Source: a virus. Taken from it: a stretch of DNA of 62,667 nucleotides. Numbering within the stretch: the first letter of the stretch is position 1; each line of letters starts with the position of its first letter. The stretch covers positions 1-62,667 of IMG/VR virus record IMGVR_UViG_3300048026_000549; one strand, given 5' to 3'. A model generated the notes under the pieces. That model saw nothing but the letters and a program-made list of their open reading frames with translations, had not been told where the DNA came from and ran no database searches. Below, in pieces: positions 1 through 62,667 of the stretch. The position numbers and the translations under genes are program-made.

Positions 1-390
1 TTTGTTGTTGCATCGAGTTGAATTACAGGTCGCCGCTATATCAAGATGGCGTTCGTCATTTTGTATTTAACATAGTTAGCCCCGAATATCGGCGTTAGGG
101 CGGCATGGGCGACCGGAATCCGAACCTCTCATGTGCGTGTACATGAGGCAGGGGCGGGCGAGTGCGTGTACGCAGGTGCGTTTAAGAAGGTTTCGTGGGC
201 GGGAGTGCACCTCATGTGCGGGGAAGTGCGCTGGAACCTACCCACATGCTCACAAATCGCCGCATTTTTACGCAATCCGTTGGAATTATGCCGAAAAGCG
301 GGGCACTTTGCCATATATAGCATGAAATCTGCCTTCACTTTGGACTTTTCCGGGTGAAAGTGGCTCTCTCCCTATGTGCATAGGCATACA
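1..390. repeat. Left copy of direct terminal repeat
   Basis: These 390 bases recur at 62278-62667 without gaps and with 7 mismatches. Six mismatches lie together at about 95-110 and one near 260. The copy carries the promoter and start codon of the gene at 62093-62290 (the cat at 11-13 is its reversed ATG), so this gene crosses the junction. This is usual for a contig from a circular or circularly permuted genome. The rest of the copy is non-coding, with a hairpin built on CTCATGT/ACATGAG near 127-153 and a TATA-like stretch near 310-317. Confidence 0.95.
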
Positions 391-2349: not shown

Positions 2350-5181
2350 TTAAGACCAACTGTACCATTCACCGTTGTTGTTAGCAACGATGTCATGCCA
2401 CTCCATGTCGAAGTCATCGACCATCTCGACCTTAACGGTGTCGTCGTCGAGGTCGGGGTCGAAGAGCCCTGCAAGTACCATAGCCATTGTGTCTGTGCAC
2501 ACATCGGGGGAGAAGTTCTTGCCGTCTTGCCACCGGAGTGGCAGGTCGTACTTGGACCCGTCCGGGCGGATGGCCATGTGTGATTGACCATCAAAGCCGT
2601 GGTACACTGCGTCTGCTGGCCATGACTGGTAGTACATCGCGTGGCGGGTGTTCCAGTTGGCACCGAGCATCTCGTTGTATGCGTTGTCGATTGCGTCGTT
2701 AAGGGCCATGTCGTCCCACTCGTATTGCATGAGTTGGATGGAAGCCACATTGACGGAGCCGATGGCACATGTGTCCGAGTCGCCGGTTGCTTTGGCTGGT
2801 GTCCTGTTCCACTGTGCGTATGTGCGCCAGTCGTATGACACACCTGCTGTGTCTGCACTGCCCTTGATGTGTCGGCTGGTTATCACACCATCGGGTGAGA
2901 TGGTGTACTCCTTGCCGATGGCACAAGCCCAACTGTTGTAGATGCGCTTGCCGTAGGCGTCGTGCAGATGCTTCTCAGTCGAGGCGACCACGATGATACC
3001 TGCGTCGGAGTCAAGGCGGCCCGCATGGAGCGGGTTGCCACCGTTAGTCCAGAACTTGAGTGTACCTGCTGGGTCACGAGCGTCGGACCAAATGAGGGAC
3101 ATTGAGCCCTCACACAGTTCGACCACCTTCTCGATGCCACCTGCTTCGAGGCAAGCGGCGACGGCTTGGCTGTCCACCGGACCAGTCTGTTTGGCGTCAA
3201 GCGCCTTCCAAACCGTGTCGTAGTTGTGAACCACACCGTTGTGCACGAGTGTCACATGGGCTTTGGGCCCGAAGTGAGGGTGTGCGTTGGCGGCGGTGTT
3301 TTTGCCGTGTGTCGCATACCGTGTGTGCATCATCATCCAAATGGTTGCCTTGCTGAAGTACTTCTTGAACAACTTCGGTGCAAGGGCCACACTGCTGGTT
3401 GGTGACTTTTGGTAGTACACTTCGCCATCGGTGGTCTTGAACCACGCCGCACCTGCCGCTTGGTTGCCACGGCTGGACAAGCCACTAAAGAGGCGTGTTG
3501 ATGCCTTCTTAGCGTTGTTGCCCTTGACGGAACCGGAGTGGACAAGACCGATGCCACACCCGACCAGTAGCGCCACTGCACCGATGAGAGGTGCTGTGAC
3601 AGCAAGGCCAAGCATGAACACTGCCAGTCCACCCATCTCGTAGGCGGTGGTGTGTGAGCGTGAACCCATTACAAGTTCTTCGCAACCACAGTAGGGGCAT
3701 TCCAAGTCTTCGCCATCATGTGGTGTGACAATGTAGTCGCCGGTGTCGTGTTCACTGAAGAACATCCGTAGGTAGTTGGCACTGAAGCGGTTTTCGTAGT
3801 TGTCTGCACTGAGTGAACTGCCGCAATCGTTGTTGTTGCAGTGGATGTAGGTGCTGGCAAGGTTGAGTTGGTTGTTCTCATCCAAGTTATTGAACTCTTG
3901 GAGAGCCGCCGCTCGGTCAATGAAGACCTCGCACTCACCGTGTACGCAGTGCGTTGAGCCGCATAGCACACACGCTGTTGTTGGTATGCCATGTAGCACG
4001 ACTGCTCGCTTCTCGTAGTAGTCACGGATGTGATGGTCCACTTCAAGGTCCATGAAGGCCCACATTGCGTCACGGGTGTTTGGTAGGTCGTCAAGCGAGA
4101 AGAAACCGAGGTAGTTGGTCTCGTCTTCGCAAGCCGCCACAAACCGTGTACAGAACTCGACCCAACGGCTGATTTTCATTGGGTTGACTGTGCCTTGATG
4201 TGCTCGGAACTCGATGGTACCGAATCCACGGGCAAACATTGACTTGAGGTTTAGGTGCTGGTAGCGTCCATGACCGGAGTGCCAGTCAAAGAGGTAGTGG
4301 TAGTGTTTGTCACCTGTGTGCTCAATCATCTCGTACTCGTCCGTGACATGGTTGTATGTGCGTCGTGTGTGCGAGGTGGCTGTGAAGACCATCTCACTTG
4401 GATGCATGTCCGGGTCGTGCAGATTGTGGGCTTGTGCGTACTGGTTGTCCCACCGGGATGATGGGAAAATCTTCTTCAAGTCGTGGAAGAAGAAAGACCA
4501 TGCGTATGCTACTCGTCCACCGATTGACTTGGCTTCGTCGTGCGACATCACACCATTGTCCCCAAACATTTCGTTGGGTTTTCTTAGTGCGACATGTGCG
4601 TGTAGCCCAGTCGTGGTGTTGATGCGGGCAATGGCTCGCAAGGGTTCTACTGTTTCAAGAATCCAAGCGGTCACTTCTGCCGGGGCAAGAGGTGGTGAGA
4701 CCACCTCGAAGCCGCCACTGCTGAGTGAACCATCCGTGGTGACACGGGTGATTCCGCCGGTGGTGCGACCTGCCATCCACTCCGAGGACTGGTGCGTGTG
4801 GTTGGTCTGCTCCGTTGGCTGTTCCACTGACCGAAGGTAGGCCCGCCGAGCGGCACGAGTTCGTCGTGCTTTGGCATTTTGACCTTGTACGAAGGACAGG
4901 AAGCGTTTGAAGGCCCCCGGTGCGTCTTTCGCTTTGTGAAGATTGAGCCAATGGGCTATCTTCTGGTTCGGTGCAGATTCAGCGTGTGCTTTGCGGATGG
5001 CCTCGATTTCGAGCCCGATGCCGTACATCTTGGTAGCGCCTACTTGTGCGTACTGCTTTCGTTCGTTCTTTCGCTGGACAGATGCGGATAGTATGGTAGC
5101 GGCCATGAGTACAAGTACCCAGCCCATTGCCAATACGAACCCGAGTCCGTCTGCTTCGTTCATCATTTGTGCGTTTTGCAT
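2350..5181 (-). CDS. Amidoligase-like / class II glutamine amidotransferase fusion
   Basis: A 943-aa protein started at the ATG after CAGGAGGAACAAAA; a longer frame to 5307 lacks an SD. Order: a membrane helix (about 14-34); an amidoligase-2-like domain (about 53-345) with DGSL (150), EVVSPPL (159), GLHAHV (192) and GTIEFRAHQGT (321); Cys pairs at about 404/407/412/417, 448/453 and 495/498/500; a second hydrophobic stretch (about 518-541); then a class II GATase domain with CGIGLV (Cys 542), SSRGNQAAG (569), HTRYATHG (619), AHPH (633) and VHNG (646). The last 150 residues are unassigned. Family knowledge: amidoligases make amide bonds, and class II GATases release ammonia from glutamine with an N-terminal Cys. 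Here that Cys is internal, so activity would require cleavage after Gly 541. A tethered amide-forming or side-chain-modifying enzyme is inferred; the substrate is unknown. Confidence 0.75.
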   Translation of the reverse strand: MQNAQMMNEADGLGFVLAMGWVLVLMAATILSASVQRKNERKQYAQVGATKMYGIGLEIEAIRKAHAESAPNQKIAHWLNLHKAKDAPGAFKRFLSFVQGQNAKARRTRAARRAYLRSVEQPTEQTNHTHQSSEWMAGRTTGGITRVTTDGSLSSGGFEVVSPPLAPAEVTAWILETVEPLRAIARINTTTGLHAHVALRKPNEMFGDNGVMSHDEAKSIGGRVAYAWSFFFHDLKKIFPSSRWDNQYAQAHNLHDPDMHPSEMVFTATSHTRRTYNHVTDEYEMIEHTGDKHYHYLFDWHSGHGRYQHLNLKSMFARGFGTIEFRAHQGTVNPMKISRWVEFCTRFVAACEDETNYLGFFSLDDLPNTRDAMWAFMDLEVDHHIRDYYEKRAVVLHGIPTTACVLCGSTHCVHGECEVFIDRAAALQEFNNLDENNQLNLASTYIHCNNNDCGSSLSADNYENRFSANYLRMFFSEHDTGDYIVTPHDGEDLECPYCGCEELVMGSRSHTTAYEMGGLAVFMLGLAVTAPLIGAVALLVGCGIGLVHSGSVKGNNAKKASTRLFSGLSSRGNQAAGAAWFKTTDGEVYYQKSPTSSVALAPKLFKKYFSKATIWMMMHTRYATHGKNTAANAHPHFGPKAHVTLVHNGVVHNYDTVWKALDAKQTGPVDSQAVAACLEAGGIEKVVELCEGSMSLIWSDARDPAGTLKFWTNGGNPLHAGRLDSDAGIIVVASTEKHLHDAYGKRIYNSWACAIGKEYTISPDGVITSRHIKGSADTAGVSYDWRTYAQWNRTPAKATGDSDTCAIGSVNVASIQLMQYEWDDMALNDAIDNAYNEMLGANWNTRHAMYYQSWPADAVYHGFDGQSHMAIRPDGSKYDLPLRWQDGKNFSPDVCTDTMAMVLAGLFDPDLDDDTVKVEMVDDFDMEWHDIVANNNGEWYSWS

Positions 5182-5350
5182 TTTTGTTCCTCCTGTTTTT
5201 GGGGTTGTCCTGTTGCCTTTTGGGACTCTCGATATGTTGCCCCAGCAATCGGGGCTCGAGCCTGTCTTTGGTCGGTCAGTGTCCGGTGATGCAGGGTGAG
5301 GGTACAAGCCTCGGGTTGTTTGTATCGAACCCTGCTGGTGAGTAGGAAAG

Positions 5351-6417: not shown

Positions 6418-6588
6418 CTCTCTCCCAAGAGTCCTCGTGGCAAAGGGGAAGTACCTAAGACTATTGTATAAGACAACGCCAAGCACTCTCTCCCCAGCGC
6501 ATTTTCATTTTCTAATGACGCAAGCACGGCGGCAACACTGGCGGCAAATCCAACCAAAATTCAAACATCGCTGGCTTGATATATGACC
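6418..6588 (+). promoter_or_regulatory. Cassette module 1 with promoter
   Basis: CTCTCTCCC (6418), TAAGACT (6456), CTCTCTCCCCAGCGCATTT (6486) and the TATA box TTGATATATGACC (6576-6588). The same four parts in the same order and spacing precede the other three accessory genes. The ATG at 6605 lies about 25 nt after the TATA box, consistent with leaderless initiation. Confidence 0.75.
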
Positions 6589-7240: not shown

Positions 7241-7272
7241 CTCCCAGCGGCTCCGGCGGAGGCGGATTCTCT

Positions 7273-7430
7273 CTCTCTCTCCCTCGCCGGAGGCATTATT
7301 TTGCGTAAGACTTACTTACTATACTGCGTCGAACTCTCTCCCCAGCGCATTTTCAATTTATACGAGCATCCCCCCGAAGGTGGCTGAGGCTGGCAACCAA
7401 GCCCATCGCTGGCTTGATATAGGGGACACC
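7273..7430 (+). promoter_or_regulatory. Cassette module 2 with promoter
   Basis: CTCTCTCCC (7273), TAAGACT (7304), CTCTCTCCCCAGCGCATTT (7334), then TTGATATAGGGGACACC (7414-7430). Spacings between the first three parts are 31 and 30 nt, matching the other copies. Transcripts would start near 7435-7440, at or just before a tiny ORF. Confidence 0.75.
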
Positions 7431-7726: not shown

Positions 7727-7836
7727 ATCCGGTAAGCCGGAGATCAAAATATAAACCGGAATAGTCGCAGACAGGTTCCGTTCCCACTCAACGATGGTAG
7801 CCAACAACCCGTCGCCCTTCGGGGCGGCGGTTCTCT

Positions 7837-8000
7837 CTCTCTCCCTCCCAGCGCAAGCATTGTTTTGCGTAAGACTTCGTTAATACAATACCAGCATTTC
7901 TCTCCCCAGCGCATTTTCAGTATATACGGCCGTCCCCCACTGAGTGGGGCAAACAGCCCGAGATTGGCTTCGCTCCGCTGGCTTGATATAGGAGAGTGCC
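7837..8000 (+). promoter_or_regulatory. Cassette module 3 with promoter
   Basis: CTCTCTCCC (7837), TAAGACTTCGTTAATAC (7870), CTCTCCCCAGCGCATTT (about 7900) and TTGATATAGGAGAGTGCC (7983-8000). A hairpin CCCCAC-TGA-GTGGGG near 7933-7947 lies between the last two parts. Upstream, near 7811-7828, is a TTC-loop hairpin that may terminate cassette gene 2. Confidence 0.75.
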
Positions 8001-8503: not shown

Positions 8504-8523
8504 TCGATTGGCCTTCGTTCTCT

Positions 8524-8702
8524 CTCTCTCCCTCGGGGCGAAGCCATATATTTGCGTAAGACTTCGTTAATACCACGAATGAATCTCTCTCCCCAGCGCA
8601 TTTTCATTTAACACGGGTGCCCCCCGCAAGTATGCTGATGGTCCCTCGAGGCCCGCTTCAGCGGGCTGGGGTTCCCACCACCACCATTGATATAGGAGTG
8701 TG
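8524..8702 (+). promoter_or_regulatory. Cassette module 4 with promoter
   Basis: CTCTCTCCC (8524), TAAGACTTCGTTAATAC (8557), CTCTCTCCCCAGCGCATTT (8585) and TTGATATAGGAGTGTG (8687-8702). A second hairpin GCCCGC-TTCA-GCGGGC (8651-8666) lies just before the TATA box. The ATG at 8716 is placed for leaderless initiation. Confidence 0.75.
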
Positions 8703-18500: not shown

Positions 18501-21425
18501 ATGGCAGATAGATACTGGGTTGCTAAGGGATTAGTGGCGAACGCATCCGACACCTCCAGTTGGAATACAGCCCCGGACGGAGGTGGGTCTTCCGGCGTAC
18601 CTGCTCTTAATGATGTACTACACTTTGGTGATGAAGTGTCGGTGCAGACTGGAGTAGGCTTCGCTAAGTGCAATTATAACATTACCACTACCATAGAGCA
18701 TCTAAAGACATCAAGTGGCTACAACGGCGCAACAGTGACCTCTACGGACATTTCTTTCACAGCACCCGGCACTATAACCCACAGTCACTCTAATTGGGAG
18801 GACTTGGGGTTCAAGCAAGGTATGACCATCACAATATCGGGGGCCGCTAATGCCGCCAACAATCAAACCCGAGAAATCCAAGTAGTGACCAGCAACACTA
18901 TGACACTCTTGGGTTTGAGCCCTTCACTTGCTGACGAAGCGGCTGGTGCTAATGTGACAATAACATGTGACATTTCAATCGACATCACCGCTTCATTTAC
19001 TACCGACCTATTGACTCTCGATACTAAGATGCAAAACACAAGTGGTTCGGGAGTGACTATTACAATCAACGGTAATGACGCACCCTTCTATGTGACTAAT
19101 GGGTCAAACGCAGTCATTGAAAATGTTGACGACATAACCTACGACTATAACAACTCTTACCAGACTGTTATTTTTGATGATGGTCCTTATCCCATTGTAG
19201 TAGGTACTTCCAGTGACTTTACCCCGGAGTATCAAGCCCCCACATCCACTGACTTCGGTGCCGCAACCATGAGAACCTTGAGATTGGACTCGAGTTGTAC
19301 TTTCGCTCCTAACCCAAGCCCTGCGGCATCACCACGACTAAACAGCAGTAAGGTCTTCAACATTACTAAGACCAGCAACTTTCAAATACAACACAACACC
19401 TTTGACACAGGACTAAGTACATTTGCTTTCACACTCGACGCCAGCAATTGGACACTACCTATTAGCGGTGACACTTCCTATGGTGCTGGTACCTTTGTGT
19501 CAAAGTTCTATAACCTCATCATACGCACTCCCGATACTGCTGGGCATGTCACACTAATACCGAGTGACCGGACACTATCAGTCAACAGCCTAACTGTCGA
19601 GAGCGGAGCAGTCCTCCGTGGGCAGACTACTACGAACACCGGTACTACCAGCACGATATGCTCGGTTAGGCGACCATTGATTCAAGGCGCTTGGAACTTC
19701 TCACAACTATCCGATGGAGTGTATGTCTCAGTGCTGTCCGATTCTTTCCCAATCACACCGTCGAGTGGGGCCAAAGGACTGGTACAAATATCCAACGGTG
19801 CTGGTACCTTCTCATCCGATTCTAAATTGACATGGACCAGCGGCACATCCACCTTACTTGTTGATGGTAAATTGGATGTCACTGGACTAATTGACCCTAC
19901 GGGCATGCAGTTCGACAGGCAAGCGACCAATCCCGGCACTGCTGATACAGTGTGGGTGGACAATACCGGGTCACTAATGTTTGGAGCAAGCGCAGTTGGT
20001 GGTTCCGGCAGTCAAGGACCAGCCGGGCCAGCCGGACCACAAGGTCCAGCGGGAGCAGATGGGGCTGACGGAGCCGATGGCGCACAAGGTCCAGCCGGAC
20101 CAGCAGGTGCTACCGGAGCGGCTGGTGCAACCGGACCTGCGGGTCCACAAGGACCGGCGGGAGCGGCAGGTGCTGATGGAGCAGACGGCTCCGATGGTGC
20201 GACAGGCGCACAAGGCCCACAGGGACCGGCAGGGGCAACAGGACCGGCAGGTTCTAATGGCTCGGACGGAAGTGATGGTGCAGACGGTTCGGATGGAGCG
20301 CAAGGTCCACAGGGACCAGCAGGTGCGACAGGACCAGCAGGGCCTCAAGGACCGGCGGGACCGACCGGTGCTACTGGACCTCAAGGACCACAAGGCCCAG
20401 CCGGTAGTGGGGGTACGATTGACATTTCAGCACTTACAGCAGACACACAAATCCGAGACGCCGACCTAATTCTCATTGACGCGGCGGCTAATGGAACCAA
20501 TAGGAAAACCACATTTACCGAGGTCAAGGAGTGGATTCGTGGCGAAGGCCAACGGGTTGGTCGAGATGGTGGTGTCAACGAATTAAGGATTCGAGATTCA
20601 AGGGACGACGGAGATGTTCACCCCAACGAGTTCGTTAATCAGACTGTATCGTTTGACTTCACCGACGACATAACAGGCTCAACGAACTCTTGGGACTCGG
20701 TTATGACCATGAAGGGGTGGACTGATAACTACCGAGCATGGCAGATATGGTCTGCGGCGCATACAAGTTCGGGGTCCGTCGATACAGTGCCACTGTTCTT
20801 CCGTAGCGGAGAGGAAGATGTGCAAGACGGTTGGGGCCAAATAAAGGAGATTTTAACATTTCCCGGTACTGCTCCGAGAGTCGATGGTTCGGCAGGTCAA
20901 ATTCTACAAACCAACGGCAATGGCGTACTTTCTTGGGCTTCACTGCCTCCTACATCTCCCCCACCCATTACGGGCCAGTACGAAAAATACATACTTCAAC
21001 AGTCAATTTCAACGGGCGGAGGGACCATAACACTTGGATTCAATCCCAATGAACTATTCGGTACATACCAAACAGGTTCAGTGTCGGATTGGGCGGAGGG
21101 GCCGGACCACCTTGAAATCACCGCAGACGGGCTGTTCCAATTCACCTTCGGTGTGTTCGTAGATACACTTGGTGCAAATTCGGCTGAAACGCTATTTACA
21201 ATCTCAACCAACCCTTTTGCATCGGGCGACCTACTTTCGCACCGAAACAGAGGGGACACGGACAGGTTCACGGACACAGGGGTCACTACTGCATATTTGA
21301 CTGCTGGACAGCGTGTGTGGTTTGATGTTTCTTGTAATAGAACTCACGCAATCGGTGGCTTTGTACCCGGTCCTTTTGGACGGAATGAGGTCCGTACTTT
21401 CCTTGATGTAAGGAGGCTTGAATAA
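18501..21425 (+). CDS. Collagen-like fibre with C1q-like tip
   Basis: 974 aa. Residues 1-500 are beta-rich and Thr/Ser/Asn-rich. Residues about 504-636 are an almost unbroken Gly-X-Y array (GPAGPQGPAG, GADGADG), predicting a collagen triple helix. After a linker, the last 140 residues (GLFQFTFGVFVDTL, then TAYLTAGQRVWFDVS) resemble C1q/TNF-like trimeric heads found at tips of viral and spore collagen fibres. It lies between head and tail genes, so it may be a head or neck fibre that binds surfaces. Confidence 0.8.
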   Translation: MADRYWVAKGLVANASDTSSWNTAPDGGGSSGVPALNDVLHFGDEVSVQTGVGFAKCNYNITTTIEHLKTSSGYNGATVTSTDISFTAPGTITHSHSNWEDLGFKQGMTITISGAANAANNQTREIQVVTSNTMTLLGLSPSLADEAAGANVTITCDISIDITASFTTDLLTLDTKMQNTSGSGVTITINGNDAPFYVTNGSNAVIENVDDITYDYNNSYQTVIFDDGPYPIVVGTSSDFTPEYQAPTSTDFGAATMRTLRLDSSCTFAPNPSPAASPRLNSSKVFNITKTSNFQIQHNTFDTGLSTFAFTLDASNWTLPISGDTSYGAGTFVSKFYNLIIRTPDTAGHVTLIPSDRTLSVNSLTVESGAVLRGQTTTNTGTTSTICSVRRPLIQGAWNFSQLSDGVYVSVLSDSFPITPSSGAKGLVQISNGAGTFSSDSKLTWTSGTSTLLVDGKLDVTGLIDPTGMQFDRQATNPGTADTVWVDNTGSLMFGASAVGGSGSQGPAGPAGPQGPAGADGADGADGAQGPAGPAGATGAAGATGPAGPQGPAGAAGADGADGSDGATGAQGPQGPAGATGPAGSNGSDGSDGADGSDGAQGPQGPAGATGPAGPQGPAGPTGATGPQGPQGPAGSGGTIDISALTADTQIRDADLILIDAAANGTNRKTTFTEVKEWIRGEGQRVGRDGGVNELRIRDSRDDGDVHPNEFVNQTVSFDFTDDITGSTNSWDSVMTMKGWTDNYRAWQIWSAAHTSSGSVDTVPLFFRSGEEDVQDGWGQIKEILTFPGTAPRVDGSAGQILQTNGNGVLSWASLPPTSPPPITGQYEKYILQQSISTGGGTITLGFNPNELFGTYQTGSVSDWAEGPDHLEITADGLFQFTFGVFVDTLGANSAETLFTISTNPFASGDLLSHRNRGDTDRFTDTGVTTAYLTAGQRVWFDVSCNRTHAIGGFVPGPFGRNEVRTFLDVRRLE

Positions 21426-40514: not shown

Positions 40515-42767
40515 TCATACCCATCGAACAGCACCAAGACCACGGTGGGCATTCCACAATTCCTGTGTACTCCACCCAACAAGGTCGTAAATGTCGCATG
40601 CTTTGTTGACAATGTATGTCTCCGTCATTCTCGCCCAGTCAATGGTACACACACCTTGCAGTTGCTCAAAATTGTCAAATGCAATGTGCTGTCCCCTCTT
40701 GTTGACGGCGGTTAGGAAAGCCTCATCGACCTCATAGTTGCGACCGAGGTTCTTTTTAGCCCATTCAGCACCCGCTGAGGCACCCGAAAGTACTTTATAC
40801 TGTGAAAGACGACGCTTCAACTTTCCTACCATCAACACATCCTCGGCAAGTTCACCGTTGATGCCCTTAGTGATGAGCCCACATACCTCAGTATCGACCT
40901 CATCTTGAGCCACACCATCGAGGATAGCACGAAGTATGGAGTCCATTGTGGACTTCATGGCCTTTGGCATCCTCGCTTGCTTGAGTTCAAGACCCTTGTA
41001 GTAGTATTCGGGTTCGTGCGACTGACCATCGGTCCATGTGACCTTGCCAGCGTAGCGGTTCTTGCGCTTGAGAATCATAGACTCACACCACTTCTCGAAC
41101 TCGGTTTCGATAGGAGCCATAGCCTTGTTAATTTCATCGACCAACAGCATCCCTTCTTCGGGACTTGGTACCTCACAAAATATAGAGTCAGTGTGTCCAT
41201 AGCGCACAGGATAACCACGCTCGTTGCATTCGTCACGCAGACGGAATAGGGTCTGTCGAGAAGTGTAGGTGATAGCGGCGGCTATATCGGGGTGGTACAT
41301 GCCGAACTTAGAATCACCGCAGATACCATAGAGAGAAGCGACCATTGATTTGGTAGCAAATTGAGCCCCATCCCACTTCTTGTAGGCGATGTTATCGCCA
41401 TCAGCCCGAGCCTGTTTCATTAGCGCCTTGTATTCGTTGCGCTTGACAGTCAACTTGTCCATAGTCCTACCAAGCAAGCCACGCTTGCCTTGTGTGAACT
41501 TAGCACCACTACCACAGTCCACACCCTCATCCGATAGAGTAGTCCAGCAGATGTTATGTAGATTTACATTGGAGTGGTACATGGCCTTGATGTCCATAAT
41601 AGCAATGTTGGTGTATCGTCCGGGCTCCGGCTCTTGAATATCAGCACCGGTGTAGTCTTGCTTCTCGAACTTAGCGGAGTCGGGTAGGCGTAGGTCGAAC
41701 TCATCGTCTTGTAGGAAGAGACTTGCCGAACAAGCGGTGATGAGGGGAGTCGTAGCCAACTGACACTGTACAAGATGTTGCATAGAGGTGTGATAACCCA
41801 CAGCATTTACTGCTTCATCCAAGCGGGGGAGTAGCCTCACATCCTGTTGGTTGTAGTCGAGGTATGTGCCTACATCGGAATAGTAGGTATCGTGGCCATT
41901 AGGCAACTCAACCTTTCTTTCTTGTAGCACATGCCAAGCAATATCGTCCAACTTCTGCGATGCCAACTGTCCATTCTTGATAGTCCACAGTCGCTTGAAT
42001 CCAACCATGAGGTCAAAGCAAAGTCGTCCCGGTATAGGTTGTGACCAGTGTTTGTCACTCCAATTGTACATGAAGTCGTGACGGTTGTACGGTGATAGGC
42101 TCTTGGGGTTAAGGCCCACAGCCCTCATGCGGTCACATATCTGCTTGATGTCAGCATCCACCACATACCAACCAGCAATGACATCGGGGTCATGCTTAGA
42201 CATCTGCGATGCAAAGTGAGCGAGTAGTTGTCGCTCGTTAGCAAACGCTCGTACAGGAGTGTCGAAATGAATCTCCTTGAGCCCATCCGGGTGGTCAGTA
42301 CAAGGTAGGGACTTGTGCAATCCCGGCTCGATGTCGGGGCTCGTGACCCATGTTAGCATCCGCTTGGTGTAGGAGTCCAGTACCGAGAGCATGGTGATTT
42401 CACCGGAGGTAGTCTTCCACTCACCGTCGAGATACCACACCCTGTGCTCGTAGTTAGGGATAGGGTCTTCACCCTTGACCAAGCGGTCATTAAGGACTTG
42501 GTTGGGGAAGGTTATGTTGGCCTCCCATGTATCGACATGCTTGGCCCATAGTCTTCTGTCGTACTCGGTACGGAAGTGTACCTTGTTCAAGCCCGTACCA
42601 TACAGTCCCTCATACCCTTCTTCGACTTTGACCAACCCATATCGGTCATTGACATTCTTGGCAAAGCAGTATGGGTATGCCTCGACGACATAATCCCTAC
42701 GCTCATTTGTTTCGGGGTTTCGAGAACGAATCCGTACCTTCCTACCACCAATATGTGTGACAATCAT
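40515..42767 (-). CDS. polB: Family B DNA polymerase
   Basis: 750 aa. Exonuclease motifs: YLDGEW near 112 (Exo I DxE), GWYVVDADI near 199 (Exo II) and YLDYNQQD near 304 (Exo III). Polymerase motifs: MDIKAMYHSNV near 392 (motif A), KSMVASLYG near 470 (motif B), YGHTDSIF near 519 (motif C with the usual DTD as HTDS, keeping the catalytic Asp) and LKRKNRYAG near 563. An active proofreading replicase is expected. Start is an ATG about 25 nt after TATATACTGCCG. On the short side for PolB, as in many viruses. Confidence 0.95.
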   Translation of the reverse strand: MIVTHIGGRKVRIRSRNPETNERRDYVVEAYPYCFAKNVNDRYGLVKVEEGYEGLYGTGLNKVHFRTEYDRRLWAKHVDTWEANITFPNQVLNDRLVKGEDPIPNYEHRVWYLDGEWKTTSGEITMLSVLDSYTKRMLTWVTSPDIEPGLHKSLPCTDHPDGLKEIHFDTPVRAFANERQLLAHFASQMSKHDPDVIAGWYVVDADIKQICDRMRAVGLNPKSLSPYNRHDFMYNWSDKHWSQPIPGRLCFDLMVGFKRLWTIKNGQLASQKLDDIAWHVLQERKVELPNGHDTYYSDVGTYLDYNQQDVRLLPRLDEAVNAVGYHTSMQHLVQCQLATTPLITACSASLFLQDDEFDLRLPDSAKFEKQDYTGADIQEPEPGRYTNIAIMDIKAMYHSNVNLHNICWTTLSDEGVDCGSGAKFTQGKRGLLGRTMDKLTVKRNEYKALMKQARADGDNIAYKKWDGAQFATKSMVASLYGICGDSKFGMYHPDIAAAITYTSRQTLFRLRDECNERGYPVRYGHTDSIFCEVPSPEEGMLLVDEINKAMAPIETEFEKWCESMILKRKNRYAGKVTWTDGQSHEPEYYYKGLELKQARMPKAMKSTMDSILRAILDGVAQDEVDTEVCGLITKGINGELAEDVLMVGKLKRRLSQYKVLSGASAGAEWAKKNLGRNYEVDEAFLTAVNKRGQHIAFDNFEQLQGVCTIDWARMTETYIVNKACDIYDLVGWSTQELWNAHRGLGAVRWV

Positions 42768-46847: not shown

Positions 46848-47744
46848 CTATTCTGCCAATCGGCGGCAGAAATCCCACACAACATAGTGCTCATCCACAC
46901 CACTCAACAAGTCCCGTTGGGCTTGTGTAGCGGCATCGACCAACAGCAATTTGCTTTGGCTTTTGGCTGGAGATGAAACACCGTATTGGAATACAGCGTC
47001 TATGGTTCTGCGTAGGTTGTCTTGGCCCATCAACTTAACGGCTTCCTCGACCCTACTTTCCTTGATACACAGTGTTAGGATGCGAGCCGCATCGACCACT
47101 GGCTCCGAGATGGAGCGGAGGAATTGTCCTCGAGCATCGGGAGAGATGGAGTGGTAGGCTTGTAGTGAATTGATTGCGTTGCGAAGGTCGCCCTTGTTAG
47201 CGGAGATGATGGCATCCAAGTCCTCACTGCTTGTAGTGAAACCTTCGGCGGCATCGACCTTGTGTAGTCGGAAAAACATCTCGGAATCTGTGAGAGGTTT
47301 GAAGTGTCGGACTTGGCAACGAGATTGTAGCCACGGTGACAACTTGCTTAGGTCATTGCAGGTGAGAATGAAGTAGCCTTGAGCGCCTTCAATAACACCC
47401 TTGAGAGCCGACTGTGCGGCGGGAGTTAGTTGGTCTGCTTCGTCCAAGAAGTAAATGGTTTCCCATTGACCAAGACGAGTCATAGGTGCCAGTTCCTCTT
47501 CGATGAACTCGATACCACGCTGTCGCTTAGACGACGCATTGTACATGTGGATGTGATAGCCAAGTTGCGTGGCGAGTATGTGTGCGAGACTGGTCTTACC
47601 TGTACCCGCCTCAACAGAATAGAAGATGTAGTGTTGCATTGGCTTGCCATCGAGGATGCCCTCGAACTCCGATGCAATGTGTTCTTGACCCATGAACTCA
47701 TTGAGAGTAGTAGGTCGGTGCTTGGTAGCCCATACTTGCTTCAT
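46848..47744 (-). CDS. RFC small-subunit-like clamp loader
   Basis: 298 aa AAA+ protein: TKHRPTTLNEFMGQEH (RFC box near 7), SVEAGTGKTSLAH (Walker A near 43), YFLDEADQLTPAAQSALK (Walker B near 98) and SRCQVRHF (sensor/SRC near 140). It loads the sliding clamp. No second RFC subunit is recognisable, so it may act as a homopentamer or recruit a host subunit. The ATG lies about 20 nt after the TATATAGTGGCG box, a leaderless start. Confidence 0.93.
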   Translation of the reverse strand: MKQVWATKHRPTTLNEFMGQEHIASEFEGILDGKPMQHYIFYSVEAGTGKTSLAHILATQLGYHIHMYNASSKRQRGIEFIEEELAPMTRLGQWETIYFLDEADQLTPAAQSALKGVIEGAQGYFILTCNDLSKLSPWLQSRCQVRHFKPLTDSEMFFRLHKVDAAEGFTTSSEDLDAIISANKGDLRNAINSLQAYHSISPDARGQFLRSISEPVVDAARILTLCIKESRVEEAVKLMGQDNLRRTIDAVFQYGVSSPAKSQSKLLLVDAATQAQRDLLSGVDEHYVVWDFCRRLAE

Positions 47745-48213: not shown

Positions 48214-48378
48214 TCATTCGTTGTTGTACATGTTCAAGAACATGGCAGACTCGCCCAATGAACTCGCCTCGTACTCGCTAAAGTGGTACGGTTCATACAC
48301 ATGGCTGACATCTGCTTGTAGGACTGGTATGACAACTTGCCATACCAACCACGCTATAAAAATAATAAATGAAATCAT
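48214..48378 (-). CDS. 54-aa single-pass membrane protein
   Basis: MISFIIFIAWLVWQVVIPVLQ followed by a Glu/Tyr/Ser-rich outer part (ADVSHVYEPYHFSEYEAS). The ATG overlaps the stop of the cyclotransferase-like gene (ATGA), so they are coupled. One N-terminal membrane helix, also readable as a signal anchor. Unknown; the coupling makes it a possible partner of the cyclotransferase. Confidence 0.55.
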   Translation of the reverse strand: MISFIIFIAWLVWQVVIPVLQADVSHVYEPYHFSEYEASSLGESAMFLNMYNNE

Positions 48379-48803
48379 TCCCACACCACCATTCCGTCAG
48401 CGTTAGGTTTGATTTGCGGGCCCAAGTGACCACCAAAGAACACTCCATCAGCAATGTATGCCCATGCGTTGCGGTCGGTACTGTTGTGCATTTGCAGTGC
48501 GATTTGCTCACGAGCGTACATGCCGACCTCAACACCTTCGAGGGCGTCCACTCTATCAAGAGCCTCATCGGAGATGGCCCACACCTCACCAAACACCTTA
48601 TTATCCCCAAGCATCATGGCGGGGAAGGCACCAACACTATGAAGTTCAGCGCCATAGGTGTTAGCGTAGTCCACGAACTCAGCATCAGCGCCGAGCACAT
48701 GGTGGTTGTAGTGTCCTTTCTTGAGAGTGCCGTACACAAACACAGTGTGTTTCATGCTTCGTTCATCATCTCGTGCGTCGTGTGTTAGTGTCTTCAAATC
48801 CAT
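48375..48803 (-). CDS. Gamma-glutamylcyclotransferase-like (GGCT/AIG2) protein
   Basis: 142 aa. VFVYGTLKKGHYNHH near 21-35 is the signature VYGTL-x-G of the GGCT fold; AFPAMMLGDNKVFGEVWAISDEALDRVDALEGV near 58-90 (cut at the turns) matches the conserved P..v.G.ly.v....l..LD..Eg region with the catalytic Glu. These enzymes release gamma-glutamyl groups as 5-oxoproline. SD AGAAGGTAATACA. In other genomes GGCT genes occur with amidoligases, so it may act with the fusion at 2350. Confidence 0.85.
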   Translation of the reverse strand: MDLKTLTHDARDDERSMKHTVFVYGTLKKGHYNHHVLGADAEFVDYANTYGAELHSVGAFPAMMLGDNKVFGEVWAISDEALDRVDALEGVEVGMYAREQIALQMHNSTDRNAWAYIADGVFFGGHLGPQIKPNADGMVVWE

Positions 48804-58910: not shown

Positions 58911-59269
58911 TCGCTCACCCCCAATTCCTCGATGATTGCCTTTCGGTGAAAGTCGTTCTTATTTGGGTCTATGCGACCGAGTGTGTCCAGCCACAAGACG
59001 ATTTGGATAGGCAGGGAATAGATGCCGTCGTAGTCGCACAGGTAATGAGGTTCTTCACGGTTAAACCACAGCCCGCCTTCGGCGTAGTATCGCTCGCTGT
59101 TCTCGGTGTCGTACATCTCAAATCCACCACGAGTACCACGCACCCATGCTGTGTAGCGCATGCTACGCTTCTCGGGCTTGGTGCCTCCCCATGAACCCAC
59201 CATGTTCACCCATGTGTCCTCGGTGATGTCGAGTTGGTCTTTGTCGCCGCCAAATAGAGGTGTACTCAT
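58907..59269 (-). CDS. 120-aa hypothetical protein
   Basis: MSTPLFGGDKDQLDITEDTW.., ATG after GGAGGTGGAACA, overlapping the previous stop (ATGA). Trp/Tyr-rich beta part (GGLWFNREEPHYLC) and a helical end. Unknown. Confidence 0.6.
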   Translation of the reverse strand: MSTPLFGGDKDQLDITEDTWVNMVGSWGGTKPEKRSMRYTAWVRGTRGGFEMYDTENSERYYAEGGLWFNREEPHYLCDYDGIYSLPIQIVLWLDTLGRIDPNKNDFHRKAIIEELGVSE

Positions 59270-59472
59270 TGTTCCACCTCCGTCGAGTGAATGGTTGAAT
59301 ACCATATCACGCTGTACGAATCCCCACATGACTCGCATGATACCTCGGCTCGCATTGTGATTTGGTCGCCATCGAATGACTCGATGTTGGCATCCCATAG
59401 GTCCACTGCATCATTTTCGGCATTGCAGTGCGGGCAATCCGCAAAGACGCTACTGTCCACTGCTACGCTCAT
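59266..59472 (-). CDS. 68-aa zinc-ribbon protein
   Basis: FADCPHCNAEND near 10-21 and VSCESCGDSYSVIWY near 44-58, a zinc ribbon with the two CxxC pairs about 30 residues apart. ATG overlaps the previous stop. Similar in plan to several zinc-ribbon genes here; probably DNA- or protein-binding. Confidence 0.65.
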   Translation of the reverse strand: MSVAVDSSVFADCPHCNAENDAVDLWDANIESFDGDQITMRAEVSCESCGDSYSVIWYSTIHSTEVEQ

Positions 59473-59970: not shown

Positions 59971-59986
59971 GTCGCTCGTATATCAA
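59971..59986 (-). promoter_or_regulatory. TATA promoter
   Basis: TTGATATACGAGCGAC on the minus strand, about 35 nt before the ATG at 59939. It overlaps the last codons of the 436-aa gene. Confidence 0.65.
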
Positions 59987-61293
59987 TCTTGCTCCCACCC
60001 TTCGCCCCAATCGGGCTTCGTGTCAATCTTGCCTCGTGTCACGGTCGTTTGCTTCGTGTCCTTGTACGAGTCATGCTTCTTGACGGTTGCTGTGAGGCCA
60101 ATGATTTGGCCTTTGGTAAGGTCGTTCTTGTCCCCACTACGGAACCACACCAGTTGGTTGCCCTTGAGGTCAACGAACTTGGTCAGTGTGCTGATGCCGT
60201 ACATGGTTTCGATACGGCGCACGAATGTGACCTTGCACGGGAGCACGGTCATACGCTCACCCACCTTGCCTACCCACTGGCTCGTGACCGTAGGCATAGG
60301 CTTGGGGGCAGGTTCGGGCTTGCGCTTGAGCCAGCCAGCGAGTGCACCACCAGCGTAGCCAGCGGTTTTGTTAGTCACCACATGGGCCTTAGCGATACCA
60401 CGCAGGTTGTGCTCGAAGTTGTTGAGCCCCGGCAGGTCAGTCATGTACTTGATGATGTCCTGTGCGGTGTTCCACACCGCCTCACTCACTTGAGGTAGTT
60501 CGTCGGGCCGACCGAAGAAAGTACCCTCCCCCAAGATACCGTGTATCTTCTCGAGAACAACCAACTTCTTGCTTTCTGGGTGCCAATACCCCACTTCGCC
60601 CCATCCGTTTTCTGTGGGTACTGCGTGTGCCCACGAGTTGAATATCCACCGACCAATGTTGCTTCGGTACCTGCCATGTGTGTTCGCATACAGGGCGAGG
60701 GCTACGGCCATGTTCGTGAGGCTCATGTTTGGGTGCTGACGCTTGTTGCGCTCACCGGTGTGTGTGGCCCAGTCGATGCGGCTGTTGCCCTTCAACTTGA
60801 GCCAAGATTCGGCCATCTCGGGTGTGATGCCTGTGTACTCGAGTAGGCATGCTGTCCCCACTTGCTTGACTGCGGAGCCATCCGTGACTGTGTACACGGT
60901 CTGCCGTCCACGCTTACCACTTGTGCAGTGGTCGCAGTGGTCGGTGAACTTGTGCGGGGGCGTGAGTGTGTCCTCGATGGTCGGGTTGGGGCTGAAAATC
61001 ACGGGCTGTCCGTGCGCTGGTTGGTTGATGTCCACCGGCTGAATTTTGGCCTGTACGGTCCATGCGTTCTCGAACTCTTCGCAAATGACCGCAAGCAGGG
61101 CCTGTTGCACATAGTACACACGCCCTCGAGAGTTCTTGAACTGGGTCAACACTGGGTCGTGAATGTGCCAAGAGAATATCTTGCCACGCATGCTAAACGC
61201 TCGAGCAAGACGCTTGAGTGTACGCTCAACTGATGCGAGGTTCACGGTGTCAATGGTCACTTTGTGCTCAATCAATACGGGTGTCGAACTCAT
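59983..61293 (-). CDS. 436-aa protein with CxxC zinc and OB-like end
   Basis: Residues 1-110 mixed; 115-160 (DHCDHCTSGKRGRQTVYTV, VGTACLLEYTG) form a treble-clef-like zinc patch known in a recurrent phage family; 160-320 helical; 345-420 (MTVLPCKVTFVRRIE, LTKFVDLKGNQLVWF, GQIIGLTATVKKHD) read like an OB fold. Suggests a nucleic-acid-binding protein. ATG overlaps the previous stop. Function uncertain. Confidence 0.6.
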   Translation of the reverse strand: MSSTPVLIEHKVTIDTVNLASVERTLKRLARAFSMRGKIFSWHIHDPVLTQFKNSRGRVYYVQQALLAVICEEFENAWTVQAKIQPVDINQPAHGQPVIFSPNPTIEDTLTPPHKFTDHCDHCTSGKRGRQTVYTVTDGSAVKQVGTACLLEYTGITPEMAESWLKLKGNSRIDWATHTGERNKRQHPNMSLTNMAVALALYANTHGRYRSNIGRWIFNSWAHAVPTENGWGEVGYWHPESKKLVVLEKIHGILGEGTFFGRPDELPQVSEAVWNTAQDIIKYMTDLPGLNNFEHNLRGIAKAHVVTNKTAGYAGGALAGWLKRKPEPAPKPMPTVTSQWVGKVGERMTVLPCKVTFVRRIETMYGISTLTKFVDLKGNQLVWFRSGDKNDLTKGQIIGLTATVKKHDSYKDTKQTTVTRGKIDTKPDWGEGWEQD

Positions 61294-62096: not shown

Positions 62097-62290
62097 TCCG
62101 TCCCCTCCAAAATGTCTCTCACGGCACAGGCTATCTCGGAAAGAAAGTGGGCCATACAGAAACCCTCGTCGTTCATCTCTTCGGGTGTAGGGCGTGAGGC
62201 CAAGACGCTCAAGGCCCGCTTAATTGCCAACTCGCTCGGTGTCAAGGGTTTGAACCCCGTCGCTGGGTTGATGTCTGTTTGTTGTTGCAT
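62093..62290 (-). CDS. 65-aa first gene of right minus run
   Basis: MQQQTDINPATGFKPLTPSE.., mostly helical after residue 18. The ATG lies about 25 nt after TTGATATAGCGGCG (leaderless). Start and promoter lie in the terminal repeat, so the gene spans the junction of the circular map. Unknown. Confidence 0.62.
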   Translation of the reverse strand: MQQQTDINPATGFKPLTPSELAIKRALSVLASRPTPEEMNDEGFCMAHFLSEIACAVRDILEGTE

Positions 62291-62667
62291 CGAGTTGAAT
62301 TACAGGTCGCCGCTATATCAAGATGGCGTTCGTCATTTTGTATTTAACATAGTTAGCCCCGAATATCGGCGTGAGGCCGACACAAGCGACCGGAATCCGA
62401 ACCTCTCATGTGCGTGTACATGAGGCAGGGGCGGGCGAGTGCGTGTACGCAGGTGCGTTTAAGAAGGTTTCGTGGGCGGGAGTGCACCTCATGTGCGGGG
62501 AAGTGCGCTGGAACCTACCCACATGCTCACAAATCGCCGTATTTTTACGCAATCCGTTGGAATTATGCCGAAAAGCGGGGCACTTTGCCATATATAGCAT
62601 GAAATCTGCCTTCACTTTGGACTTTTCCGGGTGAAAGTGGCTCTCTCCCTATGTGCATAGGCATACA
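62278..62667. repeat. Right copy of direct terminal repeat
   Basis: Matches 1-390 with 7 substitutions and no indels. It begins inside the first codons of the gene at 62093-62290, so the unique genome length is about 62,277 bp. An exact overlap would be expected from simple assembly of a clonal circle, so the clustered differences point to strain variation, a consensus error or two real diverging copies. Confidence 0.95.
62306..62321 (-). promoter_or_regulatory. Promoter in terminal repeat
   Basis: TTGATATAGCGGCGAC on the minus strand, with a second copy at 29-44 in the left repeat. A clear member of the TTGATATA class. Confidence 0.7.

Follow-up and report, generated by a model that had tools for sequence, protein, structure and literature searches.

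The fused gene found in the window (a 62,667-base IMG/VR virus record) is the known phage pair of an amidoligase and a class II glutamine amidotransferase (GATase), joined in one polypeptide and placed on the membrane. We identify it as such because related phages keep the two as separate neighbouring genes without hydrophobic segments. The gene (positions 2350-5181, minus strand) encodes 943 amino acids (aa), laid out as a first membrane segment (TM1), an Amidoligase_2 domain, Cys pairs, a second membrane segment (TM2), Cys542, the class II GATase and a C-terminal extension. The original prediction had described the same anatomy, with two hydrophobic segments, an amidoligase-2-like domain, Cys clusters and a class II GATase in one open reading frame (ORF), and had numbered it correctly: the Cys is residue 542 and is preceded by Gly541. 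Class II GATases such as GlmS, PurF, GltB and AsnB require a free N-terminal Cys, whose α-amino group joins in catalysis. Judging from the sequence, the GATase half of the fused protein probably works only after a cut made exactly where the chain leaves the membrane segment. A literature search found no paper describing a membrane fusion of an amidoligase with a GATase.

Anatomy and conservation of the fused protein

Positions 2350-5181 are open on the minus strand only, with an ATG start at 5181 and a Shine-Dalgarno-like GGAGG (5189-5193, minus strand) 7 nt ahead of it; relatives of the gene have GGAGG or GGAAG at a like distance from the start. Hydropathy of the window protein peaks at residues 9-36 and 515-552. 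The first peak is TM1 (residues 9-36; 5074-5157, minus strand; hydropathy 2.4), which has an acidic flank before it and a basic flank after it, and whose amidoligase side is predicted to be cytosolic. A hydrophobic segment at the TM1 position was computed in 13 members of the family and is visible in the remaining ones.

The Amidoligase_2 domain (residues 50-352; 4126-5034, minus strand) is supported by Pfam, by invariant columns and by the fold of the model of a shorter relative, L015. The window protein matches PF12224 with an E-value of 4.8e-11 (43.4 bits against a cut-off of 22), and in relatives such as L015 the profile is matched over its whole length. Residues invariant in all 21 fused proteins are G56xE58xE60, D150xS152, E159, H194xH196, S242R243, R306Y307 and G321TxExRxH328. 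Members of the Amidoligase_2 family are predicted to be ATP-dependent carboxylate-amine ligases; to our knowledge, the substrate is known for no phage member. Between this domain and TM2, alignments outline a zinc-knuckle-like cluster, C404-x2-C407-x4-C412-x4-C417 (3931-3972, minus strand), in which all four Cys are at least 90% conserved and which is missing from relative L025.

The class II GATase domain (residues 542-780; 2842-3558, minus strand) is defined by Pfam, by invariant columns and by fold matches to GlmS (1xff) and PurF. GATase_6 (PF13522) matches the window protein with an E-value of 2.8e-14 (53.7 bits against a cut-off of 27). The columns invariant in all 21 proteins are C542, R571, H619TRxxTHG626, N632AHPH636, H647NG649 and D670; the Arg, His, Asn-Gly and Asp needed for catalysis in GlmS are thus all retained. 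AlphaFold2 models of the window protein (mean pLDDT 60) and of L015 (mean pLDDT 74) match the GlmS glutaminase domain 1xff with a TM-score of 0.75 on the target. In the L015 model, blocks of the GATase score mostly 82-94 and blocks of the amidoligase mostly in the 70s and 80s. By fold, the same model matches phage GATases and, separately, phage amidoligases such as that of Arthrobacter phage Salgado (gp98, E 3.9e-14), and no viral structure among the matches listed spans both of its halves. The models thus place Cys542, HTRYATHG and VHNG in one predicted GATase domain of GlmS fold; a Cys lying away from the GATase, named beforehand as an outcome that would speak against the idea, was not seen. 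Such invariance in all 21 proteins, of the catalytic GATase residues as well as of the amidoligase motifs, argues that both halves are functional.

A homolog search, suggested in the original prediction, recovered the fusion on 20 further viral contigs (a count of contigs, not of independent lineages, some relatives such as L036 and L037 being closely related to each other). As in the window, all encode TM1, the amidoligase, TM2 and the GATase in one unbroken frame, and most also have the Cys pairs; Pfam Amidoligase_2 and GATase_6 both match in 21/21 fused proteins. The twelve relatives measured share 32-78% overall identity with the window protein. One of the shorter relatives, on contig IMGVR_UViG_3300032086_002243, is 764 aa long. 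With the whole window protein as query, an IMG/VR search returned no close relatives; the fused relatives were recovered from IMG/VR with a query made from the GATase part, followed by alignment queries. Beyond the fused clade, the E-values of viral matches fall from 2e-42 to 2e-17, and none of the matches read there is fused. A maximum-likelihood tree of 47 GATases places the 21 fused sequences on one side of a branch found in 200/200 bootstrap trees (support 100/100), and their nearest separate neighbours are GATases from viral contigs and from Arthrobacter phages with an unfused pair. Among GTDB contigs, cellular homologs were only GlmS-like or stand-alone Met-Cys proteins.

The separation of the amidoligase and GATase genes in other phages could raise the suspicion that the fusion, or its hydrophobic stretch, is an artefact of assembly or frame. 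We regard the probability of this as negligible: the same frame is present in 21 contigs, these form a single clade with 100/100 support, and pN/pS over TM2 is 0.11-0.54, and so below 0.6, in all eight pairs of relatives, so TM2 is translated and under purifying selection as protein. The 20 relatives with the same frame, together with dN/dS, led us to discard an artefact.

The junction at Cys542 and membrane topology

TM2 (residues 515-541; 3559-3639, minus strand), supported by hydropathy, column conservation and pN/pS, abuts Cys542 (3556-3558, minus strand), the predicted GATase nucleophile as judged from its codon and its alignment to the Met-Cys of outgroup proteins. Homologs lacking this Cys had been named beforehand as the observation that would speak against its role; the Cys is present in 21/21 fused homologs. 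The junction reads V-[G/N]-C-G-I-G in all 21, with Val at -2 and C-G-I-G in 21/21 and Gly at -1 in 20/21 (Asn, codon AAC, in relative L048). TM2 columns are weakly conserved up to -4, and VGCGIG is the most conserved stretch thereabouts. Near-total conservation at -2, -1 and +1 to +4 is what a processing site beside an active site would predict, and the Asn of L048 means that no single cleavage consensus fits all members.

Of the 59 outgroup viral GATases, 57 start with Met-Cys, and in two PHROG GATase families position 2, the residue after Met, aligns with Cys542. The codon ahead of Cys542 specifies Gly or Asn and is a start codon in none of the fused proteins, which leaves a proteolytic cut as the sole route to a free Cys; for this reason we rejected an internal translation start at Cys542. 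Separately, two Escherichia phages have ATT before the GATase Cys. In KBNP1711 (L002, 4106-4108) this codon stands in place of ATG, and the annotated start lies 45 codons downstream of it, omitting the catalytic Cys; in Bas94 (L127, 1498-1500) the annotated start is the ATT itself.

VGC could also be read as a lipobox, in which case Cys542 would carry the lipid and the protein would be lipoprotein-like, and [LVI][ASTVI][GAS]C does fit 18/21 junctions. The consensus fails in the other 3/21 (T-V-G in L041 and L042, I-V-N in L048), a lipid on Cys542 would occupy its thiol even though the remaining GATase site is invariant, and Cys542 aligns with the catalytic Cys, the Met-Cys nucleophile, of the outgroup GATases. 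We consider a lipoprotein highly improbable and rejected it on the failed consensus and this alignment.

We instead propose a membrane-anchored ligase that forms amides at the expense of glutamine. In this model, to which we give an even chance of being right, (auto)proteolysis between residue 541 and Cys542 frees the GATase nucleophile, and TM2 is the propeptide. The C-terminal GATase would draw ammonia from glutamine, and Amidoligase_2 would activate a carboxylate with ATP and couple it to this ammonia or to a different amine. Cys542 would come to lie at an N-terminus once the chain is cut between residues 541 and 542, most likely by the protein itself, as in the PurF and GltB precursors; we infer such a cut because the α-amino group of the Cys is catalytic in class II enzymes and because the site is fully conserved. 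TM2 would stay in the membrane as a propeptide together with the amidoligase. The target of amidation may be a protein, an envelope component or a small molecule, and the product of a separate gamma-glutamylamine cyclotransferase (GGACT) gene would open gamma-glutamyl amides, removing or recycling them.

The original prediction had left a choice between a cut after residue 541 and an inactive domain. Of these, the cut is favoured and inactivity disfavoured, because all catalytic GATase residues are invariant, down to ∼32% overall identity. A chain that is never cut, in which the GATase acts as a glutamine sensor or regulator, or as a weak internal-Cys enzyme, and TM2 is a membrane linker, strikes us as unlikely but worth keeping in view. 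The single frame is retained in 21/21, no protease gene was recognised adjoining the fused gene, and the Val at -2 and Gly at -1 could be retained because helix 518-539 has to turn sharply into strand 543-548. Residues 500-540 of the window-protein model are of low confidence. The invariant Cys, Arg, His, Asn-Gly and Asp would, however, be hard to explain without catalysis, and class II catalysis relies on the Cys α-amino group.

Flank charges bear on where the two halves lie. Basic residues follow the C-terminal side of both TM1 and TM2, and these positive-inside flanks would orient both segments N-out/C-in, an arrangement incompatible with two full crossings in an uncut chain. Under the cleavage model both catalytic domains would most likely be cytosolic, since the cytosol holds glutamine and ATP and each segment is followed by basic residues, and TM2 would form a re-entrant hairpin instead of a full crossing. 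That such a hairpin resolves the topology conflict is only a guess. The hydrophobic stretch of TM2 is 32-42 residues long, with Pro or Gly at -11 in 19/21 members.

Alternatively, a membrane protease or signal peptidase might cut after TM2 and release the GATase outside the cytoplasm. Such an enzyme would be suited by a hydrophobic segment that has L, I, V or T at -3 and ends in a small residue at -1, and an N-out/C-in TM1 combined with a full crossing by TM2 would put the GATase outside. We nevertheless think this outcome distinctly unlikely: the basic residues after TM2 (net charge up to +6 in 15 residues) disfavour export, L048 has Asn at -1, and a ligase that uses ATP in the cytosol would not receive, by channelling, ammonia produced externally. 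Returning to the cleavage model, a membrane-embedded propeptide might couple ammonia release to membrane insertion beside the built-in ligase, with amides formed only at the membrane; our confidence in this coupling falls slightly short of even.

The virus, its host and other loci

The first and last 390 bases of the window (1-390 and 62278-62667) form a direct repeat with 7 mismatches. Because a relative, L016, spans the join, the gene order of relatives fits and the ends repeat, we probably have here the whole of a genome that is circular or circularly permuted. A search for near-identical DNA in known phages with positions 1-25000 found none. Two replication genes are of archaeal/eukaryal type: an RFC small-subunit-like clamp loader (46848-47744, minus strand) and a family B DNA polymerase (40515-42767, minus strand). 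The best PDB matches of the clamp loader are archaeal RFC small subunits (E about 1e-30, versus 5e-9 for the T4 loader), and among phage records the polymerase is closest to those of haloarchaeal tailed viruses, at 22-25% identity. As the nearest relatives of both are archaeal or haloarchaeal-virus proteins, an archaeal host is likely on this sequence evidence, and the uncultured viruses with the fused gene are probably archaeal. Archaea do not have bacterial murein, so the archaeal-type replication genes of this virus call into question the usual explanation of such enzymes by peptidoglycan modification.

Several other loci were noted. Intergenic direct repeats at 6469-6514, 7267-7387, 7831-7951 and 8518-8638 share CTCTCTCCCCAGCGCATTTTCA, in a family of three 121-nt copies and four copies of a 46-nt core; the family also occurs in relative L016 and is possibly a promoter or regulatory repeat. 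Most relatives keep a gene of the phrog_2319 family (59983-61293, minus strand) on the downstream side of the fused gene. We looked for annotation of this family and of the small downstream ORF, both conserved neighbours, and found none. The first 45 residues of the phrog_2319-family version from relative L019 match a separate site (59264-59398), as though rearranged. A 974-aa collagen-like protein of the tail fibre (18501-21425, plus strand) has many PHROG tail-fibre matches.

Comparison with phage and cellular systems

Many phages have the amidoligase-GATase pair, and adjoining genes for the two have been described (PMC3890496). The amidoligase gene directly precedes the GATase gene in phiEco32-like, LUZ24-like, Privateervirus and Arthrobacter phages, the same order as in the fusion. 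That glutamine-derived ammonia could feed the amidoligase, as the original prediction suggested, would agree by analogy with this gene pair, and for the same reason the idea is not new. According to PMC10580990, Iyer et al. 2009 proposed the set found in phiEco32-like, LUZ24-like, Privateervirus and Arthrobacter Laroyevirus phages. With reference to Iyer 2009 and the Marvin paper, it names two suggested roles for the pair, either to modify the cell wall and so counter superinfection or to make secondary metabolites. A role in nitrogen metabolism has been suggested for a Planctomycetes phage in which a GGCT is present as well (PMC10945688).

The window virus likewise has a GGACT/AIG2-like gene (48375-48803, minus strand; Pfam PF06094, E 2e-21), ∼16 kb from the fused gene on the circle and in no shared operon with it. 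GGACT genes occur in 9/21 fused-clade contigs, among them each of the seven that are 55 kb or longer, and in 5/5 tested phages with a separate amidoligase-GATase pair. Genes for COOH-NH2_lig and RimK-type ATP-grasp enzymes were found in 0/9 fused-clade records, while two positive-control phages matched; Arthrobacter phage Salgado likewise has only amidoligase, GATase and GGACT in the stretch read. The co-occurrence of GGACT and the absence of the COOH-NH2 ligase and RimK suggest that the functional core is amidoligase, GATase and GGACT.

The window virus thus resembles the phage amidoligase-GATase-GGCT set in its two domain families, their order and the additional GGACT gene. It differs in having one polypeptide, two extra membrane segments and no Met before the Cys. 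Both hydrophobic segments of the window protein exceed a hydropathy of 2, against a maximum of 1.24 in the amidoligases of seven phages with separate genes, so the membrane segments accompany the fusion. From the phiEco32-type set it differs further in the lack of COOH-NH2_lig and RimK, in its unlinked GGACT and in its archaeal-type replication genes. The fused, membrane-anchored form argues that the two enzymes serve one shared reaction, located at the membrane, and provides a single expressible and assayable unit for both activities.

Archaeal tailed viruses offer a second comparison, as the haloarchaeal viruses phiCh1 and ChaoS9 also encode a class II GATase (PMC8651126). Unlike the window fusion, theirs is a separate 191-aa Met-Cys protein that is not joined to a membrane segment. 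In phiCh1 (L030, 8575-10221, minus strand), ORF40, labelled a glutaminase, encodes a class II GATase that is short and begins MCW, and the upstream ORF42 (HGMEIEQF...) and ORF41 (TIELRANDAHP...) resemble a split amidoligase; if they are one, the pair would extend to a haloarchaeal virus.

With GlmS, the window GATase shares the glutaminase-domain fold and all catalytic residues, and the NCBIfam GlmS model is its best family match, far under that model's cut-off. Unlike GlmS, its nucleophile is internal, the isomerase domain is absent and the partner is an amidoligase. As in PurF and GltB precursors, the Cys nucleophile is preceded by residues needing removal. The PurF and GltB propeptides are short and soluble, of about 11 to 40 residues, whereas in the window protein a membrane segment and a whole enzyme, ∼540 residues in all, precede the Cys. 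A cut at Cys542 would, if real, make TM2 a propeptide embedded in the membrane, of which we know no description for any class II GATase.
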